This document shows positions 1 to 36,433 of a stretch of DNA of 39,702 nucleotides, one piece after another. A model generated the notes under the pieces. The model saw only the letters and a program-made list of their open reading frames with translations, was not told where the DNA came from and ran no database searches. The DNA comes from a virus. How positions within the stretch are numbered: the stretch's first letter is position 1; the number at the start of each line of letters is the position of its first letter. Both the position numbers and the translations under genes were made by a program. Where the stretch lies: the IMG/VR virus record IMGVR_UViG_3300032278_000031, positions 1 to 39,702 of that record; one strand, written 5' to 3'.

Positions 1-2
1 AT

Positions 3-173
3 GTTAGTTTGATAATGTTGATAATTAATGGGATAGGTTATTATTGTGGTTTGGGATATGTTCTGACAAAAGAATTGAATGCATTTTGGCTATTTTTCAA
101 TTATACATCAGGATTGATAATGACTTTTTTATGTGTTGTAATGTGGTCGATTTATAAAGGGGAGAAATCATGA
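3..173 (+). CDS. 3' end of a small membrane protein (possibly partial)
   Basis: An open frame enters from the left edge and stops with TGA at 171-173. The stop overlaps the next gene's ATG as ATGA, so the two are probably translationally coupled. It encodes about 56 residues with two hydrophobic stretches, one near the start (LIMLIINGIGYYCGLGYV) and one in the middle (FWLFFNYTSGLIMTFLCVVM), separated by a short charged loop. It ends in a charged tail (KGEKS). This looks like the last part of an inner-membrane protein. An in-frame ATG at 15 could start a 52-residue protein, but no ribosome-binding site is visible before it, so truncation by the window edge is more likely. No family is recognised. 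Confidence 0.5.
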   Translation, partial: VSLIMLIINGIGYYCGLGYVLTKELNAFWLFFNYTSGLIMTFLCVVMWSIYKGEKS

Positions 174-1003
174 ATCAAAAAGATTTACATGAAAAGATTT
201 TGTATCCAGTGACTAGAGTAAAGGCTGGAAAAGCTGGCGGTTCTGGTGTTTTAGTATACAGTGAACCAGATCCAGAAGATAGTGGAAAATATATCAATAT
301 CATATTGACATGTCAGCATGTTATTGATGGTGCTATTTCTGTTAAAGATGAATGGGATTCATTATTGAAAAGAGAAATTAAAAAGGATATTAAAGAAGAA
401 GTTGCGAATGAAGTTTTTGATTATGATGGTTCTAAAATATCTTCAGCTAATAGTTCACAAGCAGAAATTATAGCTTATGATAAAGGGCACGATTTGGCAG
501 CGATTAAACTACGCAACAGCAGGCCACAAGAATATGTTGCAACAATTTATCCAAAAGACGGTATTGACGATTTGCAATTATTTGATGATGTTTGGACAAG
601 TGGATGTAGCTTGTTACATGATCCTTTTGCTAGTAAAGGTGAATTGACATATCTGCGAGAGATGATTGACCAAAAGTCTTATATTATGTATAATGCCCCA
701 TCCATTTTTGGCAACTCAGGCGGTGGTGTATTTCATGGTGAAAATGGTACGTTGTTAGGTTTATGCTCTCGTATTACTAGTATCCAATTAGGGTTTGGGA
801 TAGATGTTATGACTTGGATGGGATTTGGTACGCATCCATCTAGGTTGTATGAGTTTTTCGAGCATCATGAATTACAATTTATTTATGATGGTTCGGATTA
901 TTATGATGCACAGGAACGTAGGAAAGAACGTCAACGTAAATCATTACGGCATTTATTCATAGAAGAAAAAGATGCTGATAAAGTAGAAGTTCTCGAAACA
1001 TAA
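170..1003 (+). CDS. Trypsin-like (S1/HtrA-fold) serine protease
   Basis: The 277-residue protein carries the three blocks of a chymotrypsin-fold serine protease in the right order. His50 lies in LTCQHVIDG (the classical TAAHC region), Asp108 in HDLAAIKL, and Ser183 in FGNSGGGVF (the GDSGGP region). The glycine-rich GGSGVLV strand at residues 23-29 is the usual first beta strand. No signal peptide or PDZ domain is visible, so it probably acts in the host cytoplasm or the virion. The last 35 residues are very charged. The start at 170 has a good Shine-Dalgarno (GGGGAG) and overlaps the upstream stop. T4 itself has no such enzyme (its prohead protease gp21 is a different family), so this is an accessory gene. 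The substrate is unknown: processing of a virion protein and attack on a host protein are both possible. Confidence 0.85.
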   Translation: MNQKDLHEKILYPVTRVKAGKAGGSGVLVYSEPDPEDSGKYINIILTCQHVIDGAISVKDEWDSLLKREIKKDIKEEVANEVFDYDGSKISSANSSQAEIIAYDKGHDLAAIKLRNSRPQEYVATIYPKDGIDDLQLFDDVWTSGCSLLHDPFASKGELTYLREMIDQKSYIMYNAPSIFGNSGGGVFHGENGTLLGLCSRITSIQLGFGIDVMTWMGFGTHPSRLYEFFEHHELQFIYDGSDYYDAQERRKERQRKSLRHLFIEEKDADKVEVLET

Positions 1004-1014
1004 AGGAGAAAATC

Positions 1015-1293
1015 ATGCCAGTATTTTTAGATGAAAAAGATTCAAGGAAAGATTTCATAGGGGAACAACTAAAAAAAGTTAATTGTGGTCTGCCAGAATT
1101 TATGGCTTATGTTCATATGTCTACTGAATTTGGATGGGAATATGGAGATGAAATAGATGGATTTATAGGATCTGTTTTAGATAGGTTTCCCGAAATTAAA
1201 ACTGATGTTATGGTTGAAGAAATTGCAGAGTATTTAGAAGCTAGAGATCGAGAATATTATACTAGGAATAATCAATATATGGTTGGTTGTTGA
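1015..1293 (+). CDS. Hypothetical acidic protein (92 aa)
   Basis: A 92-residue acidic protein preceded by a strong AAGGAG ribosome-binding site 11 bases after the protease stop, so it is very likely cotranscribed with the protease. It is mostly predicted helical, contains aromatic clusters (FGWEYGDEIDGF; REYYTR) and has cysteines at both ends. I recognise no family. Its position suggests a partner or regulator of the protease, but that rests on adjacency only. Confidence 0.7.
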   Translation: MPVFLDEKDSRKDFIGEQLKKVNCGLPEFMAYVHMSTEFGWEYGDEIDGFIGSVLDRFPEIKTDVMVEEIAEYLEARDREYYTRNNQYMVGC

Positions 1294-1303
1294 GGGCGGT
1301 TGA

Positions 1304-1993
1304 ATGAAAACATTTAAGCAATATCATAACACATTAACTTATGATGATTGGGGATCTGATAGTGATAATAATAATGCAATCACTGAAGCTGGTTTATCTA
1401 GGATTATCCAGAAGGTTAAATCAGATCAAGAGGATTTTATTATTATCACTGCTTATCGTGGTGAATTTGATAAAAAGGAAAATATCAAAAGAAATCGCGA
1501 TTTAAGAGATTGGTTCAATCGTCAAAAGATGGGTGTTTACCAGCTGGTTGGGCATTGGCGAGAGTGTTCTATCGAGAACACTCCTTATGATCAGTGCCCA
1601 GCTGATAAGCTGGTTGATGTAGTTGAGCGATCTTATCTGGCTGTTAGACCTGATACTATGGCTGCTAAAGAATTCTTTAATAAATGTAAATTTATTACAA
1701 AAAAATGGAAGCAGGATGGTGCTGTTATTCGCATTCAGGAAATATTTGGTGATGAAATTCAAATTTTAGAAACGTCAGGAGAAACTTTTGGTATTGGCTC
1801 TGGTATAACTTTGGGTAAAATTTCTCAAGCTTATAGTCAACATGTCAAAAAATTAAATACTCCGTTTGTTTTTGAAGGTGTTGAAGTACCTGCTACCAAT
1901 ATGGGCAAGCAAATAGCTGAAAAATATAATTTTAACTATCCTATTGGTGCTTGGAATGATTTAAAATCATGGGAAAGTATTATTAGTGCTTGA
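1304..1993 (+). CDS. T4-type phage conserved protein with capsid-targeting-like N-terminus (DUF3293-like)
   Basis: This 229-residue protein begins MKTFKQY, closely resembling the capsid-targeting leader of T4 internal protein III (MKTYQEF). At residues 26-30 it has ITE followed by AG, which fits the cleavage rule of the T4 prohead protease gp21 (Leu/Ile-X-Glu, cut before a small residue). The body (FIIITAYRGEF, then NRDLRDWF near residues 65-72, a GHW strand and ERSYLAVRP) resembles the DUF3293-like proteins common in marine T4-type phages. Function is unknown; a protein packaged in the head and delivered with the DNA is the best inference. It starts after a GAGGGCGG purine run. The coding sequence contains an unusually strong nested hairpin at 1541-1604. 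It overlaps the following GTG start by 8 bases. Confidence 0.65.
   Translation: MKTFKQYHNTLTYDDWGSDSDNNNAITEAGLSRIIQKVKSDQEDFIIITAYRGEFDKKENIKRNRDLRDWFNRQKMGVYQLVGHWRECSIENTPYDQCPADKLVDVVERSYLAVRPDTMAAKEFFNKCKFITKKWKQDGAVIRIQEIFGDEIQILETSGETFGIGSGITLGKISQAYSQHVKKLNTPFVFEGVEVPATNMGKQIAEKYNFNYPIGAWNDLKSWESIISA
1541..1604 (+). other. Nested inverted repeat inside a coding sequence
   Basis: A perfect 9-bp stem (1562-1570 GAGTGTTCT with 1575-1583 AGAACACTC) closes a four-base loop. Outside it, CAGCTG at 1541-1546 and GGGCA at 1550-1554 can pair with TGCCC at 1595-1599 and CAGCTG at 1599-1604, with a small bulge. The whole forms a long imperfect hairpin within the DUF3293-like gene. Such a structure is rare in this AT-rich genome. 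No function can be assigned. Confidence 0.55.
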
Positions 1994-2186
1994 TCTGTTC
2001 GAGGATTATGTGAAAAATTCAGATCAGAAAAAGATGATAGAGGTTGATATTGATTTAGATGATGATTTGTATAATAAAATTGTTGCACATTTGGAAACTG
2101 ATGATCCGAATATCATTTCTCAGTGGATTTCTATGGCTATAAAAATAGTAATTACAGAATATATTGAGAAAGAGGGGGAACAATGA
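1986..2186 (+). CDS. Small ribbon-helix-helix-like protein
   Basis: The 66-residue product has the layout of a ribbon-helix-helix DNA-binding protein: a beta strand (MIEVDIDLD, residues 17-25), a helix (DDLYNKIVAHLE) and a second helix (ISQWISMAIKIVITEYIE) with the usual spacing. RHH proteins bind operator DNA as dimers. The strand is acidic rather than basic, so DNA binding is uncertain. The GTG start at 1986 overlaps the previous stop by 8 bases and lacks a Shine-Dalgarno. An ATG at 2033, after a weak AGAAAAAG, would give just the core fold in 50 residues. No toxin-like partner lies next to it, so an antitoxin role is not supported. It overlaps the next gene by ATGA at 2183-2186. Confidence 0.55.
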   Translation: MLDLFEDYVKNSDQKKMIEVDIDLDDDLYNKIVAHLETDDPNIISQWISMAIKIVITEYIEKEGEQ

Positions 2187-2392
2187 TAGACACGTATGGT
2201 GTAAAGAAAATGAGTGCCATGGATTATTATAGAGTTTTCCAAGAGGTTCAGTCAGCTAAGCAGCTTGCTAGAACTCATATGAAAACTCAAATATCTACTC
2301 ATGAAAGGAATAAACATGAGGTTTCTAAATCGGAAACTTCAAACGTTATGGCCCCAAGAAAATGGGGCAGTAACTTGGACGTTAAAGCATAA
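2183..2392 (+). CDS. Hypothetical basic protein (69 aa)
   Basis: This 69-residue basic protein overlaps the RHH-like gene by four bases (ATGA) and has a strong GAGGGGGAA ribosome-binding site, so it belongs to the same operon. The N-terminal half is predicted helical (MDYYRVFQEVQSAKQLA); the C-terminal half is polar and probably disordered. No family is recognised. Confidence 0.6.
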   Translation: MIDTYGVKKMSAMDYYRVFQEVQSAKQLARTHMKTQISTHERNKHEVSKSETSNVMAPRKWGSNLDVKA

Positions 2393-2404
2393 GGGTATTT
2401 GATT

Positions 2405-2548
2405 ATGTTTATTGGAGTTGAAAGGATATATGTAAATTATCAAGAAATAATTAAGCAAAGACAAAAGACTAATCGAAAGATAGTTAAGAGTATTTCTAAA
2501 TCTGTTAAGTCAGATAATAATTTAAATAAACGTAAGTATAGGAAATGA
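2405..2548 (+). CDS. Hypothetical very basic small protein (47 aa)
   Basis: A 47-codon frame starts at ATG 2405, eight bases after an AAGGG ribosome-binding site, and ends with TGA at 2546-2548. The product is strongly basic, especially toward the C-terminus (NLNKRKYRK), and could bind nucleic acid, but no family is recognised. It fills the gap between the 69-residue gene and the flagellin-like gene. Confidence 0.45.
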   Translation: MFIGVERIYVNYQEIIKQRQKTNRKIVKSISKSVKSDNNLNKRKYRK

Positions 2549-2562
2549 AAGAGGTAAGTTGT

Positions 2563-3393
2563 ATGTTAAGTGGTATAACCGCACAAACTTTAGGTAGATA
2601 TCAAGAAGCTACTAGAATGGTTGAAGAAACTATGTCTAGGTTGGCATCTGGAACAGCTGATTTAGGATCGGGTGATAAAATTAGAGTGGGTAGGATCAAT
2701 AATACTATTCATACTCTACAGGCAGCCCATAAGGTGGTCAAACAGAATCAGGATTTGTTAGAGTCAGCATTGGCAGGAACTGATGCGATTACAGCTGTTG
2801 TTAATAAAATGAAAGAAGTTGCAGCTGAAGCTCAAGATGATCAATTGACTTCAAGTCAGCGACAAGCATTGATGGATGAATACAATGAACTATCTAAAGA
2901 GATTGATTATGTTGCTAAAAATACTGAATATGATGGAACAGAATTGATTGATGGTACTTTTGGAACTAAGAGTTTTATCATTGATGGTGTTAGTGTTGAT
3001 CAATCTGTTAGTGTTGAATTAGGTGATCTTACGTGGAGTGGATTACAACTTGGTGGTTATACTGACGATCAGGGTGTTATAGTTGTTACTTCAAAATTGG
3101 ATACTGTTGCTGATGCTCAGGATGCAGTGGCACGATTGGAAGCTTCTTTGGCCACATTAGAGGGTGAACGATCTAATCAGTTAGCTAAAATCGAGAGGTT
3201 CGATTTTACTATTTCTCATATGGAACGTATGATTAGTATTAATGAGGAATCTATTGCTAGTATCAATGATTTTGATGAAGCTTCAGAAATGGCTAAATTG
3301 ACCAGCTACAGGATTGAACAGCAAACAGCTATCGCATTGATGGCTCAAGCACAGCAATTGTCTGCTAATGTATTGCAATTGTTACAAGGCTAA
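2563..3393 (+). CDS. Flagellin homologue (phage-encoded)
   Basis: The 276-residue protein has the architecture of a minimal flagellin. The N-terminal D0/D1 helices include RLASG at residues 26-30 (consensus RLSSG), a long amphipathic helix, and KEIDYVAKNTEYDGTELIDG at 112-131, matching the conserved flagellin stretch EIDRIA..T.FNG..LLDG. A short central domain is followed by C-terminal D1/D0 helices ending in AQAQQLSANVLQLLQG (261-276), as in flagellins (ANQVPQQVLSLL). The hypervariable D2/D3 region is nearly absent. The normal DDAAG motif is replaced by GSGDKI, so the protein is divergent but shows no frameshift. I prefer ATG 2563, with GAGG eight bases upstream, over the in-frame ATG at 2545, which lacks good spacing. 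Flagellins polymerise outside the cell after flagellar type III export. In a phage the product could copolymerise with or cap the host filament, act as a decoy, or be a virion fibre. Confidence 0.85.
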   Translation: MLSGITAQTLGRYQEATRMVEETMSRLASGTADLGSGDKIRVGRINNTIHTLQAAHKVVKQNQDLLESALAGTDAITAVVNKMKEVAAEAQDDQLTSSQRQALMDEYNELSKEIDYVAKNTEYDGTELIDGTFGTKSFIIDGVSVDQSVSVELGDLTWSGLQLGGYTDDQGVIVVTSKLDTVADAQDAVARLEASLATLEGERSNQLAKIERFDFTISHMERMISINEESIASINDFDEASEMAKLTSYRIEQQTAIALMAQAQQLSANVLQLLQG

Positions 3394-3405
3394 AAAATAG
3401 CCTTG
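3385..3405 (+). other. Perfect hairpin at the flagellin stop, overlapping a -35 box
   Basis: CAAGGCTA at 3385-3392 pairs perfectly with TAGCCTTG at 3398-3405 around a five-A loop. The left arm carries the first two bases of the flagellin stop codon, and the right arm overlaps the -35 box of the gp33 promoter by three bases. No T-run follows, so it is a poor intrinsic terminator. It could limit read-through, protect the 3' end, or be an operator for the promoter. Confidence 0.6.
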
Positions 3406-3432
3406 ACAAACGCTAGCTGGATATGGTATAAT
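3403..3432 (+). promoter_or_regulatory. Consensus sigma70-type promoter for gp33-gp59-gp32
   Basis: TTGACA at 3403-3408 and TATAAT at 3427-3432 both match the bacterial consensus exactly, with an 18-base spacer. The predicted start point is about 3439-3441, which coincides with the gp33 ATG at 3441. This would be recognised by unmodified host RNA polymerase, as expected for an early promoter. Confidence 0.85.
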
Positions 3433-3440
3433 ATAGTATA

Positions 3441-3701
3441 ATGAAAAATGGAATAAGTGAAAAAGATTTTTTGGAGTTGACTAACTCACATACTTCAAAA
3501 TCCTTTTCACTTGAAATAGAGAAAATGGTTAGAGTAAATCAATCGAGTTATATAGATGCAGTTTTGGAATACTGCATTCAGAAAGATATTGATGCATCAA
3601 TTATTCCAAAATTGGTTAATAGACAGTTAAAGGATAAGCTTGAAACTGAAGCTAAGAAATTGAATTTTATTGTAGATAATACAGTTGAATTGCCAATATG
3701 A
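3441..3701 (+). CDS. 33: gp33 late-transcription coactivator
   Basis: The 86-residue protein aligns by eye with the C-terminal two thirds of T4 gp33 (112 residues). FSLEIEKMVRVNQSSYIDAV corresponds to FIIEKMVEEFGMSYLDAT, followed by similar spacing of the I..KLV....KDKLETEA region. In T4, gp33 bridges RNA polymerase and the sliding clamp gp45 and, with sigma factor gp55, activates TATAAATA late promoters. T4 also has gene 33 near genes 59 and 32, the order seen here. The start has no Shine-Dalgarno, and the promoter's predicted start point falls at or within two bases of the ATG, so the mRNA may be leaderless. The end overlaps gp59 by ATGA. Confidence 0.85.
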   Translation: MKNGISEKDFLELTNSHTSKSFSLEIEKMVRVNQSSYIDAVLEYCIQKDIDASIIPKLVNRQLKDKLETEAKKLNFIVDNTVELPI

Positions 3702-4309
3702 CAGCGTTTGAAGTTTATAAGATTTATTTGTCTGTGAAGTTGCATTTTACTAGTGAACATTTTGATATGACTAAAGGAACAGGTGGAGTTAAATGTAAAG
3801 AGACTACATTTAATAAAAGGCAAGATTGTCATTTTTTTGAGCGATTAAGTAGAAAATATCGTTCAAGTGAATTGTTGGGTTTGTTTGTTTCACATTTTGT
3901 TTCCGAATCACAATTTAATAAATTGTACGGAGATGATGCAGATGATACATACAAAGAATGGAAAAAACGTATACAGAGAATGAGCTATACATTTGAAAAT
4001 GATATCAAATCATTGAATAAAGTAACTGACAATTTCAATAGTTTATTTTCTGTCAATGGATCTGGATGGCCAGTATTGTTTGATTTACAAAGGATTGATG
4101 ATATATCTATTGAAACATTTGTTATAATGGATAAATTGTTAGACTTTATTCCGCAATTCGACACAGATATAAAAGAAACACGTCGATGGCCACAAACAAG
4201 CTTGACTTGCAAGAAGTATTCAAAATTTCTTCAGGTTGATGAAAGTAAATATCGTAATATACTACGCAATACAGTAGTAATGAATAAGCAATTACACGCA
4301 GCAATATAA
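3698..4309 (+). CDS. 59: gp59 replicative helicase loader
   Basis: The 203-residue protein matches T4 gp59 (217 residues) in length and landmarks: VYKIYLSVKLHF near the N-terminus (T4 VYKLYLMIKQHM), FNKRQDCHFFERLSRKY (T4 YQKRRDKYFFQKLSEKY), FENDIKSL (T4 FEEDIRNI) and IETFVIMDKLLDFI (T4 FETFILLDSFLNII). gp59 binds fork DNA and gp32 and loads the gp41 helicase. ATG 3698 overlaps the gp33 stop and has no Shine-Dalgarno of its own, so translation is probably coupled to gp33. gp32, its binding partner, is the next gene. Confidence 0.92.
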   Translation: MTAFEVYKIYLSVKLHFTSEHFDMTKGTGGVKCKETTFNKRQDCHFFERLSRKYRSSELLGLFVSHFVSESQFNKLYGDDADDTYKEWKKRIQRMSYTFENDIKSLNKVTDNFNSLFSVNGSGWPVLFDLQRIDDISIETFVIMDKLLDFIPQFDTDIKETRRWPQTSLTCKKYSKFLQVDESKYRNILRNTVVMNKQLHAAI

Positions 4310-4326
4310 AGAATAAGAGGATACAT

Positions 4327-5190
4327 ATGTCTAGTTTTGCACAAATGAAGCAGAATCGTCAATCTCAACTCGCCAATTTAACAACTGAATTAGAAAAAAC
4401 TCAAACGGTTACTAGTTACGTGGATGATCGCATTTGGAAATGTGAACGTGATAAATCTGGTAATGGGTATGCAGTTATTCGATTTTTACCACCAAGTGAA
4501 GGTGAAGATTTGCCTTGGATACGAGTATGGGATCATGGATTTCAAGGGCCAGGTGGCTGGTACATTGAAAATTCATTGACAACTTTACAACAAAATGATC
4601 CAGTTTCAGAATACAATACATCATTGTGGAACAATGGTACACAGGCTGGGAAAGATCAGGCACGTAAACAAAAACGTCGCTTGAATTACTATAGTAATAT
4701 TTTAGTAGTTAAAGATCCAGCTAATCCTGAAAATGAAGGTGAAGTCAGAATCTTTCGTTATGGTAAAAAGATCTTTGATAAAATCAATGATGTAATGAAT
4801 CCAGAATTTGAGGATGAATCGCCTGTTAATCCTTTTGATTTTTGGACAGGTGCTAATTTCAAAATTAAAGTCAGAATGGTTGAAGGATATGTCAATTATG
4901 ACAAATCTGAATTTGATCCGATTGCACCTTTAGCCGGGAGTGATGAAGAACTTCAATCAGTATGGGAAAAGCAATATCTATTGAATGATTTCCTAGCAGC
5001 TGATAAGTTTAAGAGTTATGGTGAATTGAAAGCCAAGCTCAATCGAGTATTGGGTATTGGTATTGATGATAGTGAAGATATAGCTACACCATTTGATGAA
5101 AGCGATGAACCTGATATTCCAGCACAGGCTTCAGGGGAATCTACTGAAACACTTTCTTATTTTCAGAAGTTAGCTAACGAAGAATACTAA
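4327..5190 (+). CDS. 32: gp32 single-stranded DNA-binding protein (zinc site lost)
   Basis: The 287-residue protein is the T4 gp32 homologue (301 residues). GNGYAVIRFLPPSEGED, HGFQGPGGWYIE and YYSNILVVKDPANPENEG match T4 almost word for word, followed by FRYGKKIFDKIN and the acidic C-terminal tail that contacts replication partners. In T4 a zinc is held by one His and three Cys. Here His70 is kept, but the Cys in WYIETC is Ser (Ser83) and the CPVC pair is absent, replaced by a polar loop (residues 90-110). A GAGGA ribosome-binding site lies seven bases before ATG 4327. It is the last gene of the operon, followed by a strong terminator. Confidence 0.95.
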   Translation: MSSFAQMKQNRQSQLANLTTELEKTQTVTSYVDDRIWKCERDKSGNGYAVIRFLPPSEGEDLPWIRVWDHGFQGPGGWYIENSLTTLQQNDPVSEYNTSLWNNGTQAGKDQARKQKRRLNYYSNILVVKDPANPENEGEVRIFRYGKKIFDKINDVMNPEFEDESPVNPFDFWTGANFKIKVRMVEGYVNYDKSEFDPIAPLAGSDEELQSVWEKQYLLNDFLAADKFKSYGELKAKLNRVLGIGIDDSEDIATPFDESDEPDIPAQASGESTETLSYFQKLANEEY

Positions 5191-5213
5191 GATTTAGTTT
5201 TAGTTTGTAAGAG

Positions 5214-5248
5214 AAAAGGGCTTCTGATAAAACAGAAGCCCTTTTTTT
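5214..5248. terminator. Strong bidirectional intrinsic terminator
   Basis: A perfect 13-bp stem (5214-5226 with 5233-5245) has a six-base loop, four A at its left base and seven T at its right base. It ends the gp32 operon on the + strand. Read on the - strand it lies just past the stop of the tape measure gene (5250). It separates two convergent operons. Confidence 0.95.
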
Positions 5249-5249
5249 G

Positions 5250-7625
5250 TTATATAGTTTGGACTAGGTTATTAGCCATCGACCAATGCAGAGACTCATC
5301 TCTTATTTGTGGTTTGATAATGTTATTTTGATTAGAGCTAGAAATGATATTACTAGTAACTATGTTATTTTGATTTAAAGATGATTGATCAGCAGTTCTT
5401 GTATCTTTTAATTGTTGATTTTGATCTGATGTATTATATATTCCTTCTCGTTCAGTACTAGCTACATTCAATGATTCAGTTTTAGCTATGGCTAGATCTA
5501 TTAGTTTTCCTGCGAATGGTATCGCACTTAGAGCAGCCATGGATAGTACTACGCCACCAAGAGCTTTAGCATCTTTGGCGAATCCTTTGACAGATTTACC
5601 TAATATTAAAAATCCATCTGCTAGGTTTCTTATCTTTTCAGGTTCATGGTCTAGTAGTTTTGATAATCCTAACGCAGCTGCACCTAAAGCTAATAAAGAT
5701 GGTATCGCAATTGCACTAGTAATACCAAATGCTGCTAGTGAAATGCCTAGTGTGACAAATCCTGCAGCTAAACCTAATAGATTTTGGAATGGTATGTTAG
5801 CTAATTCTACAATAGAAGCAGTGATAGTTTGGATGCCAGTGATTACTAAATTTCCTACAGTAGATACAAAAGTTATCAATCCATTCATTAGTCCTAATAT
5901 TGTATTAGATATTGTTTGGATGATAGGTACAATTACTCGCGCACCAAATTCTACTATTTTACCTAGTACGCCTAATATCGTCTCTGATATTATTTTGATT
6001 ACAGGAACTAATACTTTTGCAAATTCTACTATTTTACCTAATACACCTACTAATAAATCAGCTACTATTTTAATCACTGGGGCCATTATACGAAATGCAA
6101 AAGCTAGTCCAATCATCCCAACAGTTAAAACACCAAGTGCTATGGAAGCGATTGTAAGTGTATAAGGATCTATTTTACCTAAAGCTTTAAATAAGAAAGC
6201 AATACCTTGACCTAAACCTTTCATTAAAGTAATAAATGTACTGGTAATAACTTTAGCTATTTTTTGTACAATACTACCAATACCATCAACAAATGTTTTA
6301 ATGAGATTTAAGGCGGATTTTAGAACTCCGCTTATCCCATCTACAAAAGCTTTGATTGTGTCAAATATTCCTGTTACAATACCTTTTAGCCCACCACCTA
6401 ATCCTTGACCTATTTTTTCTAGGAAGCCAGGACTTTTAACTTCTATTTCTTTATCTTCTTCTGGTATAGATGTGCCTTCTTGAGCAGCAACTAGTTCATC
6501 ATGTCGTTGTTGTTCTTCAGCTGCTTTTTCTTTTTTACCTGCACTTTCTTTTCTTTCTTCTGTGACAAATATATCCTTTATAGCAGATATATCATCTTTT
6601 ATAAAGATTAAGGTATCTCTTATTACTTCCAGATAGGGTGGACTCCCGCGCAGTGCATCATCAATTTTTTCTAATTCTTGGGTTTGGGTTTCTAGTTCAT
6701 ATTCCAATTCTAAGTTTGCTTCTTGTGTATTTTCTGTGAGGGTTTCTAAATCTGTTTTTTCTATTTCTTCTTTTCTGGATTGTTCTATATCTATGTTACC
6801 AAGAGAAAATACTTTTCCAATGCCACCAATTAAATTTTCTGCTAGATTTCCTGATGTACCTAATGATTCTTTTCTTTCAAATTCTTCTTTTTCTGTATCA
6901 CTCATTCCTCTGACTAATGATTGTTTTGCAATTTCTGATTCTATTTTCTTTTGTTTCAGTATTGCAGGGTCGGTAAATATTTCTCGTATACCACTAAACA
7001 TTTTATCATCGCCTAGAGTTTCACTTTTACCAAATAACTTCGATCCTAGATCAATAGTTTTACCAAGGCCAGATTCTTTAAATTTTCCTGATGTTGTTTC
7101 AGCTAAACCTTTAAGGCCACCAGTTAAACTTTCACCTATGTTTCCAAATAAACCTTGAAATACGTTAAGTGGATCAGCTATTCTATTTTCTATTTGCTTT
7201 TGTCTATCTTTTAATAATTTACTTGCTTTTCCAGCTTTATTTTTTTCATCATTTAAATGGTCTATTTCTGTTTTAGATAATTTATTTTTTTCAGTTTGTA
7301 ATTTTTTGTTTATATGTTTTATTTTTTCTTGGGCTTTATGCTCAGCTAGAATTACAGATTTTCGTTCATTTAGTTGATGTTCTGTTGCGTCTGCATTATT
7401 TTTTTCATATTGTCTTACATTATCAGATAGGTTTTGGAGATCACGAGCTTGTTTTCTCTGCCGAAGTAAATTGTTTTTTTCAGATTGGAAGGATTTTTTA
7501 TCAGCTTCAGTTGTGGCATCTTTAATTTTAGCAGTCTTATCTCTGATTTCTTTGCTTAGTGCATCACGTTGAGTTTGTAAAAGTTGTTGCCTTTCTAAAT
7601 GTTTTATTTCTCTATCTGTAGCCAT
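5250..7625 (-). CDS. Tail tape measure protein
   Basis: The 791-residue protein follows the gp26 and gp51-like genes, where the tape measure is expected. Residues 1-160 are highly charged coiled coil (Lys/Glu/Gln/Arg rich). Residues 160-400 are mixed Gly and acidic segments. The C-terminal half carries a string of long hydrophobic helices from about 410 to 730. Within these an approximately 27-residue unit recurs (LLVGVLGKIVEFAKVLVPVI, then TILGVLGKIVEFGARVIVPI, then TILGLMNGLITF). This pattern is typical of phage tape measures, which set tail length, fill the tube and help DNA cross the inner membrane. It plays the role of T4 gp29, but I see no sequence match to that protein. It is the last gene of the minus-strand late operon. 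Confidence 0.82.
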   Translation of the reverse strand: MATDREIKHLERQQLLQTQRDALSKEIRDKTAKIKDATTEADKKSFQSEKNNLLRQRKQARDLQNLSDNVRQYEKNNADATEHQLNERKSVILAEHKAQEKIKHINKKLQTEKNKLSKTEIDHLNDEKNKAGKASKLLKDRQKQIENRIADPLNVFQGLFGNIGESLTGGLKGLAETTSGKFKESGLGKTIDLGSKLFGKSETLGDDKMFSGIREIFTDPAILKQKKIESEIAKQSLVRGMSDTEKEEFERKESLGTSGNLAENLIGGIGKVFSLGNIDIEQSRKEEIEKTDLETLTENTQEANLELEYELETQTQELEKIDDALRGSPPYLEVIRDTLIFIKDDISAIKDIFVTEERKESAGKKEKAAEEQQRHDELVAAQEGTSIPEEDKEIEVKSPGFLEKIGQGLGGGLKGIVTGIFDTIKAFVDGISGVLKSALNLIKTFVDGIGSIVQKIAKVITSTFITLMKGLGQGIAFLFKALGKIDPYTLTIASIALGVLTVGMIGLAFAFRIMAPVIKIVADLLVGVLGKIVEFAKVLVPVIKIISETILGVLGKIVEFGARVIVPIIQTISNTILGLMNGLITFVSTVGNLVITGIQTITASIVELANIPFQNLLGLAAGFVTLGISLAAFGITSAIAIPSLLALGAAALGLSKLLDHEPEKIRNLADGFLILGKSVKGFAKDAKALGGVVLSMAALSAIPFAGKLIDLAIAKTESLNVASTEREGIYNTSDQNQQLKDTRTADQSSLNQNNIVTSNIISSSNQNNIIKPQIRDESLHWSMANNLVQTI

Positions 7626-7629
7626 TTAA

Positions 7630-7824
7630 TTACCTTTTGGATTTTAGTCGTGCATTTTCTTTGCGAATTCTTTCATTTTCCTTTTCTATGTAATCTTTTA
7701 GTAAACCTATATAGATTTCTCTCTCGAACGGCATCATATTTTCTAGTTCACTCAAGCTATATTTATGGTGTTGAATCATGGAAAAATTAGTAACATACAT
7801 ATTACTTAAACTGTCATGACCCAA
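7630..7824 (-). CDS. 51: gp51-like baseplate hub assembly factor / frameshift tail of gp26
   Basis: The 64-codon frame encodes KYSLSELENMMPFEREIYIG followed by a charged helix. The MMPFEREIY core is typical of the short proteins annotated as gp51 in marine T4-type phages; T4 gp51 itself is longer (249 residues). The only frame-extending start is TTG at 7824, two bases after the gp26 stop and without a clear Shine-Dalgarno. Internal ATGs at codons 9 and 16 also lack one. The frame is -1 relative to gp26, and slippery heptamers lie just before the gp26 stop, so it may be made mainly as a gp26-gp51 fusion of about 301 residues, like the lambda GT tail-assembly chaperone. The tape measure gene follows four bases after its stop. 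Confidence 0.65.
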   Translation of the reverse strand: MGHDSLSNMYVTNFSMIQHHKYSLSELENMMPFEREIYIGLLKDYIEKENERIRKENARLKSKR

Positions 7825-7826
7825 CG

Positions 7827-8534
7827 CTATCCGAAAAAATTTTGTAGCCCTTCTACCTTTATTGTATCATCATAATCACAGCTTCTACAATTGTAATCTA
7901 CATTATGTGAAAGTTTGGGCATAGTTTCAAAAAATGATTGAATGTCAGCAAATTGCCCCTGAGTCAATCCTTCAAAAAATTCTTCTTTTTCATCTTTGTT
8001 ATAATCTGCCATGTCATGTGTATCATCACCATTCCAAATAAAACCTACGCAATCTTGAATCATATTCATTGTATCTTCAACGTTCATATCTCCGCTGGGA
8101 TCAATACTTTTTAAAATATTCACTGTAGGGTATTTCATAGAGATACCAATTGTATCTGTTAGATTTATTTCATTGCTGTGATTTTCAGATTTTTCTATCG
8201 TTACTTGTTCTAAATCAATAGACATTTGATTACTAGTATTACAATCTGGACAAGATAATCCTACTACGCTTTCAGCTCCAATTGATTTGGTTCTTAGATT
8301 GAGGAAAATATATTCTAAATCGAAAACAGGAAGATTATCTACATTGATTTCTTCTGATACACAATTTGTAATAATTTGTTTAATACCATTGATCATTTCC
8401 AATTGATCTTCACCTTCCATGGCCATTAAAAGTATTTTTTCTTCTTTTACTAGGAACGGCCTGTAAGATATTTCTCTGTTATTGGATGGTAGTGTGAGTT
8501 GGTAAATAGGCACATCAAGTTTTGGTAAAGCCAT
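7827..8534 (-). CDS. 26: gp26 baseplate hub assembly protein
   Basis: The 235-residue protein has the conserved pattern of T4 gp26 and relatives (T4 baseplate family): SYRPFLVKEEKILLMAMEGE near residues 24-43, then II.NC, LPVFDLEYIFLNLRTKSIG (residues 68-86) and a CPDC pair, with a second Cys pair (CRSCD) near the C-terminus that may bind zinc. T4 gp26 (208 residues) is needed to assemble the central baseplate hub. The ribosome-binding site AGGAG lies before ATG 8534. It sits directly upstream of the gp51-like frame and the tape measure, the position of tail-assembly chaperones in other phages. Confidence 0.85.
   Translation of the reverse strand: MALPKLDVPIYQLTLPSNNREISYRPFLVKEEKILLMAMEGEDQLEMINGIKQIITNCVSEEINVDNLPVFDLEYIFLNLRTKSIGAESVVGLSCPDCNTSNQMSIDLEQVTIEKSENHSNEINLTDTIGISMKYPTVNILKSIDPSGDMNVEDTMNMIQDCVGFIWNGDDTHDMADYNKDEKEEFFEGLTQGQFADIQSFFETMPKLSHNVDYNCRSCDYDDTIKVEGLQNFFG
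7833..7842 (-). promoter_or_regulatory. Candidate -1 ribosomal frameshift site
   Basis: On the minus strand the gp26 codons CAA AAT TTT TTC GGA TAG contain two overlapping X-XXY-YYZ heptamers in the correct phase: A-AAT-TTT (7842-7836) and T-TTT-TTC (7839-7833). One sense codon separates them from the stop. After a -1 slip the reading continues Arg-Ile-Ala into the gp51-like frame with no stop. I did not identify a clear downstream pseudoknot. Confidence 0.55.
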
Positions 8535-8546
8535 ATTAAAAATCTC

Positions 8547-9185
8547 CTATGTTGATATTGGTGCGTTGCCGGGTATAACTTCTTCTTTGTCGTTGTACAT
8601 CATTACCCATCGACTATAATTGAATTCAATGTTAAGTTTTAAAATATCATTTCCTTCGTAACTGAGTTCTTGACTCGGCATAGTGATAGGAAATGCTTCT
8701 ATTAATTTTATTCTATAAGTTATATCATCATGCATATTATATTTTGTAACTATCATATCTGTTACATAATTTGCTCTAAATTGATATAATGGAAAATTAC
8801 TATCATTTATTGGGTGTATATAGAGAAACCAATTATTAAAAAATATTCTTTCTTGCATATTTTCACTGCAGTTAAAAGTTAATTCAAAATTCTCAAAGGT
8901 GGCTTCAAAAGGATATACATAATCTGGGCCAATATCAGGAATAGATCCAGTTTCAAAACCCATTCCTGGCAGGGAAGCAGTGTCGCACATTATACTGAGG
9001 GCTTCTGGATTAAAGAAATTTGAAGGTTTCTTTTCAATAGGCATTAAACCTGGCGGAGTATTGATCAATACTTGGTATCTGTTGCCCATTGCTGGGCCAC
9101 CTTGTGATTTTAAATAACTTCTTATTGTTGAAATGCTACTTCGCTTACTTTGCACGTAAAGATCTCCTTGAATCGTTCCACACAT
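8547..9185 (-). CDS. 54: gp54-like tail-tube initiator (tube-fold protein)
   Basis: The 212-residue protein has the contractile-tail tube fold signature: NRYQVLI strand near residue 35, CDTASLPGMGFETG (about 68-81), the FEATFENFELTFNC strands, a RIFFNNW segment, then FPITMPSQELSYEGNDILKL and EFNYSRW near the end. The C-terminal stretch resembles the end of T4 gp54 (APELSYDGDN...FDVTFAYRV). gp54 sits on the baseplate and starts tube polymerisation. The ATG at 9185 overlaps the upstream gene by 41 bases after a weak AGAAAG. A later in-frame ATG (residue 33) would cut into conserved sequence, so the long form is preferred. It could also be annotated simply as a tail-tube paralogue. Confidence 0.72.
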   Translation of the reverse strand: MCGTIQGDLYVQSKRSSISTIRSYLKSQGGPAMGNRYQVLINTPPGLMPIEKKPSNFFNPEALSIMCDTASLPGMGFETGSIPDIGPDYVYPFEATFENFELTFNCSENMQERIFFNNWFLYIHPINDSNFPLYQFRANYVTDMIVTKYNMHDDITYRIKLIEAFPITMPSQELSYEGNDILKLNIEFNYSRWVMMYNDKEEVIPGNAPIST

Positions 9186-9729
9186 CTTGCTTTCTACCCT
9201 TAATGAATTTTTCAGTGGGTAGCATTATAGTTGAGAACCAATCATCGTCATCGACTTTTAGAAATAAACTTTTACATTGAGCGTATAAGTATCTTTTGAA
9301 ACATGGTCTGAAAAACATATATTTAGCAGTTTGTTTTAATATACTGTAGCTAATACTTACTCTGTCCATCAGCTTTATATGTGGACTTATCAATGGCCTT
9401 AGATTATTGATCAACATAGCTCTGTGTTTTGGTTGTATGTAATGTAGATTCAGTGCACTAAATCCATTACTGCTTCTGCCTATAATTATTGCCAATGGAT
9501 ATTTGTCATAATAATCCAATCTCGATTTAGTTTTAGGTTCATAGAAGAACATGTACATATGGCCAATTTTAACTGTTCGATCTAAATCACCTGCTTTTTT
9601 CCTCAGAGTAGCTGGTACACGTACTTTTAATTTTTGTAGTTGTGCTCTAAACCATTTTCTGGCTGATTCGTCAGCTTTGACTCCAGGCTGTTTTTGTGAT
9701 TGAAAAAATCTTGCTACTTCGGCTAACAT
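9145..9729 (-). CDS. Conserved T4-type virion/assembly protein
   Basis: The 194-residue basic protein contains a conserved core, MYMFFYEPKTK, YYDKYPLAIIIGRSSNGFSA and LNLHYIQPKHRAMLINNL (residues 58-110), then ISYSILKQTAKYMFFRPCFK and a Lys/Arg-rich C-terminus. I recognise this as a conserved protein of marine T4-type phages but cannot name it securely. Position next to gp4 makes a DNA-end protector (gp2-type) or hub/tail component possible. It is not gp53, which lies at 11123. The start is notable: no Shine-Dalgarno, and a TATAAATA late promoter ends exactly five bases before the ATG, so the predicted transcript begins with the start codon. Confidence 0.6.
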   Translation of the reverse strand: MLAEVARFFQSQKQPGVKADESARKWFRAQLQKLKVRVPATLRKKAGDLDRTVKIGHMYMFFYEPKTKSRLDYYDKYPLAIIIGRSSNGFSALNLHYIQPKHRAMLINNLRPLISPHIKLMDRVSISYSILKQTAKYMFFRPCFKRYLYAQCKSLFLKVDDDDWFSTIMLPTEKFIKGRKQDVWNDSRRSLRAK

Positions 9730-9733
9730 AAAA

Positions 9734-10171
9734 TTATTTATAAAGATGATCTTCGGTTAGTATTTGAAATATCCATTTTCTTTTCTGGCAGTACTTTTTA
9801 GCTGCTTCCCATTTTGAATGATTGGTGACATAGGTTTTTGATTCAGTTAAATATCTTTTTGATCTTTTCTTCTTTGGTTTTTTAGGCGGAACAGTTTGTT
9901 TCTTTGGTTTTATTTCTATAATTTTCTTAGATATAGTTCCATCTTTATTTAGACTTTTTATAAAGAAGTCGGGAAAATATCTTCTGTATTTTTTGTCAAC
10001 TGGTGAATAATAAGGTATAATTATTTCTTCACTTGACCATTCTAGTATAGATGGATTACTATCACAGTATTTCATAAAGCTTCTTTCCCATAGAGATCTA
10101 TACACAATTTTTTTAGGATTGCCTTTGTATTTATTTCTATTTTTGGGAATGAATTTACCTGAATACGCCAT
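9734..10171 (-). CDS. 4: gp4 head completion protein
   Basis: The 145-residue basic protein is a close homologue of T4 gp4 (150 residues): MAYSGKFIPKNRNKYKGNP, KIVYRSLWERSFMKYCD, SEEIIIPYYSPVDKKYRRYF, PDFFIKS, IIEIKPKKQTVPPKKP and KWEAAKKYC all follow the T4 order. The fold has nuclease-like features (PDF...EIKPK resembles a PD-(D/E)XK core). In T4 it completes packaged heads before tail joining. MAYSGKF marks the true N-terminus, so ATG 10171 is secure. There is no Shine-Dalgarno, and a late promoter box ends five bases upstream, so the mRNA is predicted to be leaderless. It is the first gene of the minus-strand late operon. Confidence 0.93.
   Translation of the reverse strand: MAYSGKFIPKNRNKYKGNPKKIVYRSLWERSFMKYCDSNPSILEWSSEEIIIPYYSPVDKKYRRYFPDFFIKSLNKDGTISKKIIEIKPKKQTVPPKKPKKKRSKRYLTESKTYVTNHSKWEAAKKYCQKRKWIFQILTEDHLYK
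9735..9742 (-). promoter_or_regulatory. T4-type late promoter abutting an ATG
   Basis: The minus strand reads TATAAATA, then ATTTT, then ATG (9729). T4 late transcription starts six bases after the last base of this box, which would be the A of the ATG. The box overlaps the gp4 stop codon. Low complexity of AT-rich DNA is the main alternative. Confidence 0.6.
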
Positions 10172-10176
10172 ATATA

Positions 10177-10184
10177 TATTTATA
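10177..10184 (-). promoter_or_regulatory. T4-type late promoter, leftward (gp4 operon)
   Basis: The minus strand reads TATAAATA, then TATAT, then ATG of gp4. The box matches the T4 late consensus at all eight positions. The predicted start point is the A of the gp4 ATG. It overlaps the rightward box by four bases. Confidence 0.8.
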
Positions 10185-10188
10185 AATA
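10181..10188 (+). promoter_or_regulatory. T4-type late promoter, rightward (gp48 baseplate operon)
   Basis: TATAAATA on the + strand is 25 bases before the gp48 ATG (10214), leaving a normal leader with AGGAGG. With the leftward box it forms the perfect palindrome TATTTATAAATA at 10177-10188, so one 12-bp site serves both late operons. Confidence 0.88.
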
Positions 10189-10213
10189 CAGATAGATTGT
10201 ATAGGAGGATTTT

Positions 10214-11122
10214 ATGGGAGATTTAAAATGGCCAGATGCAGTAAATGATTGTATGAAATATACACCATTTCCTCATGGTGGTGGGCCCGCGGGTGCAGGT
10301 AGTATTTATATACAAATGCCAAATGAAATTCCTGGCGATAGCCGTGGTTATGATTGGAGTCAAGGCGAAGATGCAATTTCTGCAACTGGTATGAGTTTGT
10401 CTGATTTAACAGGCGGAGCAATGGGTGCAGCAAATAAAATTGGTGGGTATGCAATAAAAAGAGGTCTTGCGGGAGTAGGTGATAAGGTTGCAGAAACTCT
10501 TGGTGGAATTTCTGAGAAAACAACTGGTATAGATAAAGAAGAATTAACAAAAGCTGTTAATAGACGCAGGGGAAGAGCAAAAAATACTCACGAAGAATGG
10601 TTTTTTAATGATGTTGAATTTCGTGCTTTTGAATTTTCTCATGAGTTATTGGCACATGATGAACAAGAAACCAATGATATAAAACATATTGTAGAAGCTT
10701 TGCAAATATTTGCATCTCCAGGCTTATCAACAAATGGTTTGGAATTTTCTCATTTTACATATCCTGCTGAATGGGAAGTTAGTTTTCAAACAGCGATGCC
10801 AGCAGATTCAAGGAATGATAGACCTTGGCTTAAAGAAAATGATTATTTGCCCAAGCTTGGACGTTGTGTTCTGAAGGATGTGAACGTGGAATATTTTGGA
10901 GAAGGATATGCCCTTTTTGTAAATAAAGCACCAATAATGGTAAAGATATCTTTATCTTTCCAAGAAATACATAAAATTACTAGCACTTCATTCTCAGCTG
11001 AAAAAGGTGCACCAGCTACGGTCACTGGTACTTTAGGTCAAGCTAAAACTGCTCTGAAATCGTTACCTGATGTTAATTCGATTGGAGCTTCAGTTGCTGA
11101 TTGGGCCACAAAGGGGTTGTAA
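10214..11122 (+). CDS. 48: gp48 baseplate tail-tube cap
   Basis: The 302-residue protein is shorter than T4 gp48 (364 residues). Its N-terminal 130 residues are Gly/Ala-rich and poorly structured; the C-terminal half has the tube-related fold. HEEWFFNDVEFRAFEFSHEL corresponds to T4 NRTKVFTWDLTPRSTEDL, and LGRCVLKDVNVEY followed by APIMVKISLSFQEIHKITST matches the T4 end (FGPCQIQSIRFD...FTLEITMREIITLNR). gp48 caps the hub and joins the baseplate to the tube through gp54. A strong AGGAGG sits six bases before ATG 10214, directly after the late promoter. It opens the rightward baseplate operon. Confidence 0.85.
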   Translation: MGDLKWPDAVNDCMKYTPFPHGGGPAGAGSIYIQMPNEIPGDSRGYDWSQGEDAISATGMSLSDLTGGAMGAANKIGGYAIKRGLAGVGDKVAETLGGISEKTTGIDKEELTKAVNRRRGRAKNTHEEWFFNDVEFRAFEFSHELLAHDEQETNDIKHIVEALQIFASPGLSTNGLEFSHFTYPAEWEVSFQTAMPADSRNDRPWLKENDYLPKLGRCVLKDVNVEYFGEGYALFVNKAPIMVKISLSFQEIHKITSTSFSAEKGAPATVTGTLGQAKTALKSLPDVNSIGASVADWATKGL

Positions 11123-34373: not shown

Positions 34374-35320
34374 TCGAAGATGGATTATATTGCGATGGTG
34401 GCTCCAAATGGATGAGTATCGGCAGTGAAGGGAATGTGTATATTTGTAATACGTTTATATACCAAAATGAATATTCTATTGGGAATTTATTTACGGATGA
34501 TATTATTTTAGGATCTAAATTTAGAAGATGTCCAATTCAGTCATGTGACCAAATTTGTGATAGACATTGGAGCAAGAAAAGAGTTTATAAAGATGGAGTA
34601 ATTATTGACGAACAAGATGTTGCAGATCCAAATTATTATAATTTATTTGAAAATACAACTTCTATTTTATTCGCTCCAACGTGGAAATGTAATTATAGTT
34701 GTTCATATTGTGGCTTGCCTCGAAAAGAATTATATCCTGATATATCAAATGCATGTGATGAATTTACTGCTGAGGAATGGATTGGTGCATTTTCCAGATT
34801 TTTAAAACTTAATAATATAGATGGTGGTATCTGGCATACTAATGGCGGAGAGCCTTTGTATTTTAAAGATATATATAAGTTATTTTCATTTTTTAATTCA
34901 CAAAATTTTAAAATATGCTTGACTACTAATTTGTCATATCCTATATATGATAAAATTATAACAGTTTTGCCAACTGATTGGGATTCTGTAGGGATAAATT
35001 GCAGCCTTCATCCAACTGATAAAAATTTTAATTGGACAATGTTTAAATCTAGGGTACAATCTTTAGCTAGTTTTGGTTATCATGTTAGTGTAAATTTCGT
35101 AGGACATCCTGATCAAATTAGTTTAGCTCATGAATATAAAGAATGGTGTGATGGAATAGGAGTAACTTTTGCATTAATTCCGTTAATAGGTAATGTAGGA
35201 GATGCTCATTTTTCTTCTGTTGAAGATTACCCAGATCCAATGAGAAACATAATTAAAGAATTGACGGTAGTTAATCTACAAGATTCATCAAGTAGATTTA
35301 GTGATGGAGAAAGGGTATAA
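34358..35320 (+). CDS. Radical SAM enzyme with N-terminal SPASM-like domain
   Basis: The 320-residue protein has a radical SAM cluster motif, C-X3-C-X2-C, at Cys111, Cys115 and Cys118 (TWKCNYSCSYCG), followed by the TNGGEP strand that binds SAM and a barrel to about residue 300. Unusually, the first 70 residues look like a SPASM domain (Cys12, Cys30 in GNVYICN, IGNLF, then Cys58, Cys63, Cys67 in CPIQSCDQICD), which normally follows the barrel and binds extra FeS clusters. No SPASM is present at the C-terminus. The likely chemistry is oxidation, epimerisation or cross-linking of a sugar or peptide. ATG 34358 has AAAGG at good spacing; an in-frame ATG at 34370 overlaps the upstream stop as ATGA. 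Confidence 0.82.
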   Translation: MENEMIEDGLYCDGGSKWMSIGSEGNVYICNTFIYQNEYSIGNLFTDDIILGSKFRRCPIQSCDQICDRHWSKKRVYKDGVIIDEQDVADPNYYNLFENTTSILFAPTWKCNYSCSYCGLPRKELYPDISNACDEFTAEEWIGAFSRFLKLNNIDGGIWHTNGGEPLYFKDIYKLFSFFNSQNFKICLTTNLSYPIYDKIITVLPTDWDSVGINCSLHPTDKNFNWTMFKSRVQSLASFGYHVSVNFVGHPDQISLAHEYKEWCDGIGVTFALIPLIGNVGDAHFSSVEDYPDPMRNIIKELTVVNLQDSSSRFSDGERV

Positions 35321-35322
35321 GT

Positions 35323-36432: not shown

Positions 36433-36433
36433 C

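Follow-up and report, generated by a model that had tools for sequence, protein, structure and literature searches.

The IMG/VR virus record IMGVR_UViG_3300032278_000031, analyzed over its full length of 39,702 bases (hereafter, the window), is a partial contig with a G+C content of 0.333 whose upstream end lies at base 1. At positions 2563 to 3393 on the forward strand, it contains a flagellin gene of a T4-type phage, coding for a protein of 276 amino acids. The intact open reading frame (ORF) extends from 2545 to 3393 (+), with a second in-frame ATG at 2545. The ATG at 2563 was preferred as the start because a Shine-Dalgarno-like block (AGAGGT/GCGGAG) precedes it at a constant distance across relatives of the same type (type A, defined below) and because the upstream ATG is missing in L143 (related contigs and loci are cited by such numbers). 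In the window, this block reads AGAGGT (2550 to 2555, +) and is likely the ribosome-binding site of the flagellin gene.

The encoded protein matched Flagellin_N (PF00669) over residues 9 to 132 (E = 9.2e-12, 45.6 bits versus a gathering score of 26.6) and Flagellin_C (PF00700) over residues 196 to 274 (E = 8.2e-12, 45.7 bits versus 23). An initial annotation, made from the sequence alone, had proposed a full-length, intact flagellin homologue in a T4-type phage and had suggested hidden Markov model searches, structure prediction, and phylogeny as checks. These two significant matches, one at each end of the protein, bear the proposal out, together with the D0/D1 fold and the T4-type neighboring genes described below; neither of the two findings named as refuting it, a lack of such matches or another fold, was obtained. 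The motifs that it had quoted (RLASG, EIDYVAKNTEYDGTELIDG, and AQAQQLSANVLQLLQG) were all found in the window flagellin. A sequence search of PDB matched 74 distinct sequences (best E = 3.4e-20), and the best 60 were all named flagellin or flagella. Every NCBIfam flagellin model scored below its cutoff (best, 93.8 bits versus 332), and models of hook-associated protein 3 (HAP3) matched weakly (best, 17.8 bits, E = 0.0011). Identity as FlgL (HAP3) was rejected, with TIGR02550 at 8.8 bits versus a cutoff of 127.2 and the flagellin models scoring far higher. Among the PHROGs, the last 251 of the 510 positions of phrog_16088 matched residues 25 to 275 of the window flagellin (E = 4.2e-6); the PHROG library thus contains further phage-associated proteins that are flagellin-like in part.

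An AlphaFold2 (AF2) model built on 14 family sequences (predicted local distance difference test [pLDDT] score, 76.8; predicted template modeling score, 0.63) placed helices at residues 2 to 29, 36 to 89, 97 to 120, and 182 to 275, with two short strands, and the predicted layout is that of the flagellin D0/D1 plan. Only about 60 residues separate the N-terminal helices (to 120) from the C-terminal helix (from 182), and the variable outer domains are therefore almost absent, as the initial annotation had stated. When this model was compared to PDB structures with Foldseek, the best match had a template modeling (TM) score of 0.76 (E = 3.0e-13), and the best 50 matches were all flagellins or flagellar-filament complexes. 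VIA-align superposed the model on the best filament structure from end to end (Z = 21.7; root mean square deviation, 4.0; 263 residues aligned), so the predicted fold matches that of filament subunits. Among predicted viral proteins, no related fold was found at E values up to 0.001 (best, 1.1e-3, with a TM score of 0.45).

The flagellin gene lies among T4-type core genes. Upstream on the same strand are a gene for a 69-residue protein predicted to form a single long helix (2183 to 2392; hereafter, the partner gene) and a 47-codon ORF (2405 to 2548). The latter was present in the window, L002, L005, L006, L007, L022, and L027 and is restricted to the closest relatives; the occurrences in L022 and L027 are second copies of those in L002 and L005. 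Downstream, also on the forward strand, follow genes for the late-transcription coactivator gp33 (3441 to 3701; PF16805, 1.8e-18), the helicase loader gp59 (3698 to 4309; PF08993/PF08994), and the single-strand DNA-binding protein gp32 (4327 to 5190; PF08804, 1e-39). T4-type baseplate, tail-tube, and DNA-end-protector genes were found elsewhere in the window, placing the flagellin gene outside the structural module, and the T4-type core genes suggest a lytic phage.

Counting the window, 35 IMG/VR contigs were found to carry the flagellin family, and the numbers in their names point to over 20 different IMG data sets. Type A comprises 26 of these contigs, including the window; its members are 49 to 99% identical to the window flagellin (98% for L002), and several are nearly identical to each other. 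Type B comprises the other 9, with approximately 36 to 40% identity to type A. The locus is fixed: the flagellin gene lies within 240 bases of gp33 in 29 of the 35 contigs, with 0.8 to 3.8 kb between the two in the remaining six. The distance from the flagellin end to the gp33 match was at most 240 bases in 21/26 type A contigs and at most 60 bases in 8/9 type B contigs.

T4-like loci without the gene were also found. Neither flagellin nor partner was detected in 23 T4-like gp32 loci from GTDB used as a control (gp33 was recognized in 14, and in 11 of these it was preceded by 1.5 kb or more of sequence). A search of viral loci with type A flagellin queries only, which very distant copies could escape, covered 46 in which 1.5 kb or more of sequence preceded gp33; 37 of these had neither gene and 9 had flagellin, six of these nine having been fetched because of it. 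At least 5 of 80 listed gp32 viral loci carry flagellin (L011, L151, L155, L156, and L173), a count that gives no prevalence estimate. INPHARED phage records yielded five weak matches per search, at 25.8 to 28.9% and 27.8 to 31.8% identity, and records near the window were possibly left out of these lists. One of the matched records, that of Bacillus phage EZ-2018a, encodes a canonical flagellin, with both the hydrophobic residue and the spoke motif discussed below still present. PADLOC models matched neither flagellin nor partner at E values up to 0.01.

The partner gene precedes the type A flagellin gene in all 25 contigs that reach far enough upstream (L003 begins inside the flagellin gene). 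It was not detectable in any of the seven type B contigs that include 700 or more bases of upstream sequence, the other two being too short. This linkage of type A to the partner is a new feature. The AF2 model of the partner protein has a helix at residues 12 to 53 at low confidence (pLDDT score, 65), which makes a chaperone role conjectural. The partner protein of the window had no Pfam match at E values up to 10 and no match in phage records at E values up to 1, and other members of the partner family gave scattered weak Pfam matches only (best E = 0.03). A second copy of the partner family lies at L068:12393-12587 (contig G006), without an adjoining flagellin gene and without the THEREKH block.

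Residue changes were assessed against a comparison set of 37 flagellins, comprising 36 bacterial sequences (best hits plus Escherichia coli FliC) and the one Bacillus phage record; the set thus consists of best hits and is not a random sample. At the 69 columns with conservation across 75% or more of the set, type A sequences matched 27 to 32 and type B sequences 33 to 35, while the leave-one-out median match of the comparison flagellins was 91%. The N-terminal spoke motif RI..A.DDAAGLA is lost in type A, with a four-residue gap between the first two helices. The remnant of this region in the window (codons 30 to 45; 2650 to 2697, +) lacks four residues and DDAAGLA relative to bacterial flagellins. 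At the conserved columns between positions 36 and 62, the window flagellin matched 2 of 12 and type B 5 of 12, and type B keeps [SA]SG[ST]RI...DD of the motif. Spoke identity was 0.21 between type A and gammaproteobacterial flagellins, compared to 0.51 between alphaproteobacterial and gammaproteobacterial flagellins.

The C-terminal D0 helix (codons 232 to 276; 3256 to 3390, +) is the best-conserved part of type A (mean pairwise identity of 0.80 among 16 sequences) and keeps the QQ, AQA, and L.LL motifs and a hydrophobic tip. Its identity to gammaproteobacterial flagellins was 0.43, compared to 0.46 between alphaproteobacterial and gammaproteobacterial sequences. The claim of the initial annotation that both conserved ends are present therefore stood for the C-terminal D0, which is fairly well kept, but not for the N-terminal side, where DDAAGLA is lost in the window's type. 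Within the C-terminal region, two positions were changed throughout. Codon 239 (3277 to 3279, +), following the second Asp of the C-terminal D.D, specifies Glu in 22/22 phage sequences, whereas the residue is hydrophobic (F, V, L, Y, I, or M) in 37/37 comparison flagellins. Position 252 is E, Q, R, or K in 22/22 phage sequences and Leu or Ile in 31/37 comparison flagellins (K, Q, or V in the other six). Through alignment with Y461 of E. coli FliC, codon 239 would correspond to Y458 of Salmonella flagellin. Passages of one study describe profoundly impaired motility in a mutant with the C-terminal spoke substitution Y458A and call the spoke crucial for filament formation (PMC5578693). Glu 239 and the loss of the type A spoke motif are new features of the phage flagellin, and because these two spoke features depart from those of bacterial flagellins, the phage proteins are described here as a phage-specific subfamily.

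Phylogenetic analysis placed the phage sequences together. In a first tree, 14 T4-type phage flagellins formed one clade (support, 100/100) on a long stem, and in a second tree the same was found for 22 sequences, including type B (support, 100/99). Two fragments and identical copies were removed before alignment, the long-branch sequence L127 was removed before the 22-sequence tree, and bacterial flagellins were represented by the best one or two ORFs of fewer than 420 amino acids per locus. The phage clade adjoined a group of alphaproteobacterial flagellins with support of 97/90 in the 14-sequence tree but of only 88/64 in the 22-sequence tree. The genome searches covered two classes, those to which a Gammaproteobacteria metagenome-assembled genome (MAG) and a Robiginitomaculum MAG belong; up to six candidates were scored in each genome, and the identity of the classes was taken from record titles. 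Beyond these two classes, a few of ten genomes were given the same search. The best-scoring bacterial flagellins were 30 to 31% identical to the phage protein (E = 8.8e-21 among 369 gammaproteobacterial genomes and 8.7e-25 among 385 alphaproteobacterial genomes), and no close bacterial donor was found among these genomes. A scan of all genome contigs, which reaches close relatives only, likewise returned no relative.

Ratios of nonsynonymous to synonymous substitution rates (dN/dS) for the flagellin gene ranged from 0.04 to 0.27 (15 listed pairs, many with high dS), a pattern indicating that the gene is under purifying selection. The window and L008 are 85% identical in flagellin (dS, 0.83) and 34% identical in gp59, and L004 and L011 have a dS of 0.27 in gp59 and of 0.94 in flagellin. 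L033 (type A) and L239 (type B) are 84% identical in gp59. On these comparisons, the flagellin gene moves between phage backbones.

The initial annotation had also noted accessory genes next to the flagellin gene and a separate promoter after it, which agrees with a perfect sigma-70-type promoter (TTGACA-18-TATAAT, with TG before the -10 box) at 3403 to 3432 (+), between flagellin and gp33. Its -10 box ends 8 bases before the gp33 ATG (3427 to 3441), which may leave the gp33 transcript with almost no leader. A perfect promoter was found at an equal offset (+839/+840) in L002 and L135. Sigma-70-like sites overall were not in excess in window positions 1 to 10300 (49 versus 50.7 by chance). Perfect TTGACA-17/18-TATAAT sites were found within 4 kb upstream of flagellin in 8/20 loci, at 463 to 926 bases in L137, L142, L143, and L145, at 1.4 kb in L235, and at 3.2 to 3.3 kb in L002, L135, and L150. 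A late site, TATAAATA, was found within 1.5 kb upstream in 4/20 loci (L137, L142, L143, and L145) and not in the window. No ATAAATA-type late site was present on the forward strand of the window before 10181; such sites lie just upstream of the genes at 10214 (gp48-like), 9734 to 10171 (-), 9145 to 9729 (-), and 38316. Near the flagellin gene, the sigma-28 pattern gave only matches with three mismatches; across the window there were 71 matches with at most three mismatches versus 47 expected, spread out. Neither the sigma-28 nor the sigma-54 pattern showed anything specific at the flagellin gene, both being somewhat overrepresented window-wide. Flagellin genes may use promoters other than those of sigma-28. 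Expression of the phage flagellin early in infection, from sigma-70 promoters, is likely on these patterns.

Hints to the host came mainly from RNA genes of relatives. ARAGORN predicted permuted transfer-messenger RNA (tmRNA) genes 0.3 to 2.8 kb upstream of flagellin in 9 of 30 sources; L152 repeats L150. The permuted tmRNA genes noted in related phages are L002:2772-3080, L074:15792-16100, L150:7926-8316, L173:1606-1916, and L148:3659-3846, as well as those of L233, L234, L235, and L239. The encoded tags include GNNQLPMAA and GNDYELQMAA. In Rfam, tmRNA_permuted matched 9 of 10 sources, which were chosen largely for their ARAGORN hits, and alpha_tmRNA exceeded its cutoff in 4. A tRNA-Ala was called inside the permuted tmRNA gene of L150 (8026 to 8099), and L145, L137, and L143 have a tRNA-Thr in place of the tmRNA. 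The window, which starts just downstream of the position of the tmRNA in L002, had no Rfam tmRNA match. The permuted tmRNA of some relatives hints at an alphaproteobacterial host. As passages on the OM43 phage Melnitz indicate, a permuted tmRNA need not match the present host (PMC9004378). The G+C contents of 15 stretches near flagellin genes of small-genome Alphaproteobacteria (0.36 to 0.58) are not decisive with respect to the 0.333 of the window.

Taken together, the best-fitting interpretation, to which we give a rough probability of 0.45, is that the gene encodes an early, host-directed flagellin that enters and disturbs the host route of flagellin export and assembly. The retained fold and C-terminal D0, the changed packing residues, the partner of type A, the probable early expression, and the exchange between backbones are all in keeping with it. 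Marine T4-type phages would have acquired flagellin once, long ago, and kept it as a host-directed gene driven by host sigma-70 promoters early in infection of a presumably flagellated host. FliS binds the C-terminal D0 of flagellin, according to passages of one report (PMC7248283), and the D0 ends of the phage protein, chiefly this C-terminal helix targeted by export chaperones in bacterial flagellins, could admit it to the host chaperone, export, and assembly route. Because the residues that lock the filament are replaced, the protein may act there as a decoy or poison subunit that occupies the chaperone or the export gate or that halts or alters filament growth. The 69-residue partner would probably hold or deliver it.

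Several observations weigh against this interpretation. In 12/20 loci the examined upstream stretch contained no perfect sigma-70 site, and upstream of flagellin the window has just an 11-of-12 sigma-70 match, at 1.9 kb. All four loci with a sigma-70 site closer than 1 kb (L137, L142, L143, and L145) also have TATAAATA 0.9 to 1.4 kb upstream, and because of these sites late expression is possible there. The host may lack flagella. Compared with flagellins of the Alphaproteobacteria, the likelier host group, type A has an identity of no more than 0.35 in the C-terminal D0. Three flagellins of one alphaproteobacterial genome (G024) match only 32 to 36 of 70 to 71 conserved columns (46 to 51%), about as few as the phage proteins, and therefore a poor column match alone does not mean that function is lost; a protein with changed packing residues may still polymerize, alone or with the partner. 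Part of the spoke motif survives in type B, which lacks a partner, so neither spoke loss nor the partner characterizes the phage clade as a whole. An outer loop of variable length would be in keeping with a surface-exposed fiber, too.

The initial annotation had listed copolymerization with, capping of, or alteration of the host filament, as well as a virion fiber, as possible roles; the list could be narrowed but not settled. The protein is less likely to be a working filament subunit that would be exported and incorporated into the host flagellum so as to alter motility or hide the filament from competing flagellum-binding phages. The complete predicted D0/D1 fold, which superposes on filament structures over its whole length, the C-terminal D0 with its hydrophobic tip, and the length-variable outer loop combined with exchange between backbones would all suit such a subunit, and passages on FliCP, a phage-encoded, filament-forming flagellin of an Enterobacter prophage, provide a precedent (PMC13418256). 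The changed filament-packing residues (Glu at 239 in every phage sequence and the lost type A spoke motif) make an ordinary copolymerizing subunit less likely, however, and a lytic cycle would leave scant time for filament replacement. In addition, none of the eight neighboring proteins scanned gave a TnpB/TldR-like match, and for the prophage FR-phi superinfection exclusion was tested and ruled out, as stated in passages of the same source (PMC13418256).

A flagellum-independent fiber, whether a virion appendage or an intracellular or cell surface structure with the 69-residue protein as its assembly partner, is an unlikely alternative. The changed packing residues and the new partner, strictly linked to type A, would fit such a fiber, and the alphaproteobacterial-type permuted tmRNA and the low G+C content of 0.333 would also fit SAR11-like hosts, which are not known to have flagella. 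Fiber-system genes also occur nearby in another phage: in pelagiphage HTVC008M, the curli genes csgF, csgG, and csgB (L041:6764-8759) lie approximately 1.4 kb downstream of gp32. Passages on Melnitz describe csgF/csgG in a phage whose host has no curli genes (PMC9004378). On the other hand, the flagellin gene stands outside the structural module, and no related fold was found among predicted viral proteins at the threshold given above. A virion fiber in particular is less likely because no ATAAATA-type late site lies on the forward strand of the window before 10181, and hence none ahead of the gene, and because perfect sigma-70 sites precede flagellin in 8/20 loci, although 4/20 loci also have TATAAATA within 1.5 kb upstream.

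That the gene is a captured host gene or an assembly artifact without phage function is highly improbable: at least one phage record, that of Bacillus phage EZ-2018a, does contain an ordinary flagellin, but the present family is found at a single T4 locus across 35 contigs, its 22 compared copies form one clade under low dN/dS, and neither the 369 gammaproteobacterial and 385 alphaproteobacterial genomes nor the genome-contig scan offered a close donor.

We also propose, tentatively and at somewhat less than even odds, a dedicated anti-flagellin module in which lytic T4-type phages would use a flagellin without the packing residues, coupled to the 69-residue partner, either for shutting down flagellum assembly in infected cells or, together with the partner, for building a nonflagellar fiber. 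If true, this would be the first viral use of the flagellin fold beyond a working filament in the open-license literature searched; the papers listed there describe no flagellin in T4-type phages or in lytic phages of other kinds. The flagellin lineage of T4-type ocean phages is a natural, evolution-tested variant of a filament subunit under purifying selection, and it makes testable both how phages handle the costly flagellar system and which residues divide assembling from nonassembling flagellins. The data suggest that a group of uncultured ocean phages uses flagellin as a tool for tampering with the host flagellum or for building something new.

Other genes of the window include two accessory genes upstream of the partner. 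The first encodes a trypsin-like protease (170 to 1003, +; PF13365, 1.6e-12), which was matched in 13/26 type A contigs, some of them too short, and which had one weak match in phage records and a weak match to the defense model LmuA (E = 6.3e-6). The second (1304 to 1993, +) possibly encodes an S-adenosylmethionine (SAM) lyase, with PF23780 matching below its gathering score (1.6e-5; 25.3 versus 28 bits). Possible SAM lyase genes near flagellin were also found at L238:655-1347 and L033:3146-3829, and one of the three adjoins a type B copy. At 34358 to 37603, a glycosyltransferase-like protein lies between two proteins of the SPASM/radical-SAM type, of which the first falls below the radical-SAM cutoff, and at 25597 to 32136 a 2,179-residue protein is encoded whose sole Pfam match at E values up to 0.001 was DUF4815.

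Compared to known systems, the phage flagellin shares with bacterial flagellins (FliC/Fla/Flj) both Pfam domains above cutoff, the predicted D0/D1 fold, and the QQ, AQA, and L.LL motifs of the C-terminal D0. It differs from them in being phage encoded, in its 30 to 31% identity to the best-scoring ones and its scores below the NCBIfam cutoffs, in the absence of DDAAGLA from type A, and in having Glu in place of a hydrophobic residue at position 239. Weak HAP3 matches are held in common with FlgL, from which it is separated by the TIGR02550 score. With phrog_16088, whose function is unknown, it shares the flagellin-like part, the PHROG being about twice as long. A parallel described in passages of one report is FliCP of the temperate, siphovirus-like FR-phi phage of Enterobacter, which is paired with the RNA-guided repressor TldR and forms working filaments (PMC13418256). 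Both are phage-encoded flagellins, but the carriers here are T4-type and the packing residues are changed, and no TldR/TnpB-like gene was found with Pfam and PHROGs among the eight neighbors within 170 to 5190, the contig ending upstream at base 1. The curli genes of HTVC008M, whose record also annotates a CsgB-like protein, are a parallel case of fiber-system genes near the T4 gp32 locus, and the passages on Melnitz place its csgF/csgG pore genes near a permuted tmRNA and the transcription coactivator, without fiber genes (PMC9004378). Insofar as these sources describe them, both are likewise marine T4-type phages carrying genes of an extracellular-fiber system, near gp32 in HTVC008M, whereas the phage flagellin belongs to a different protein family.
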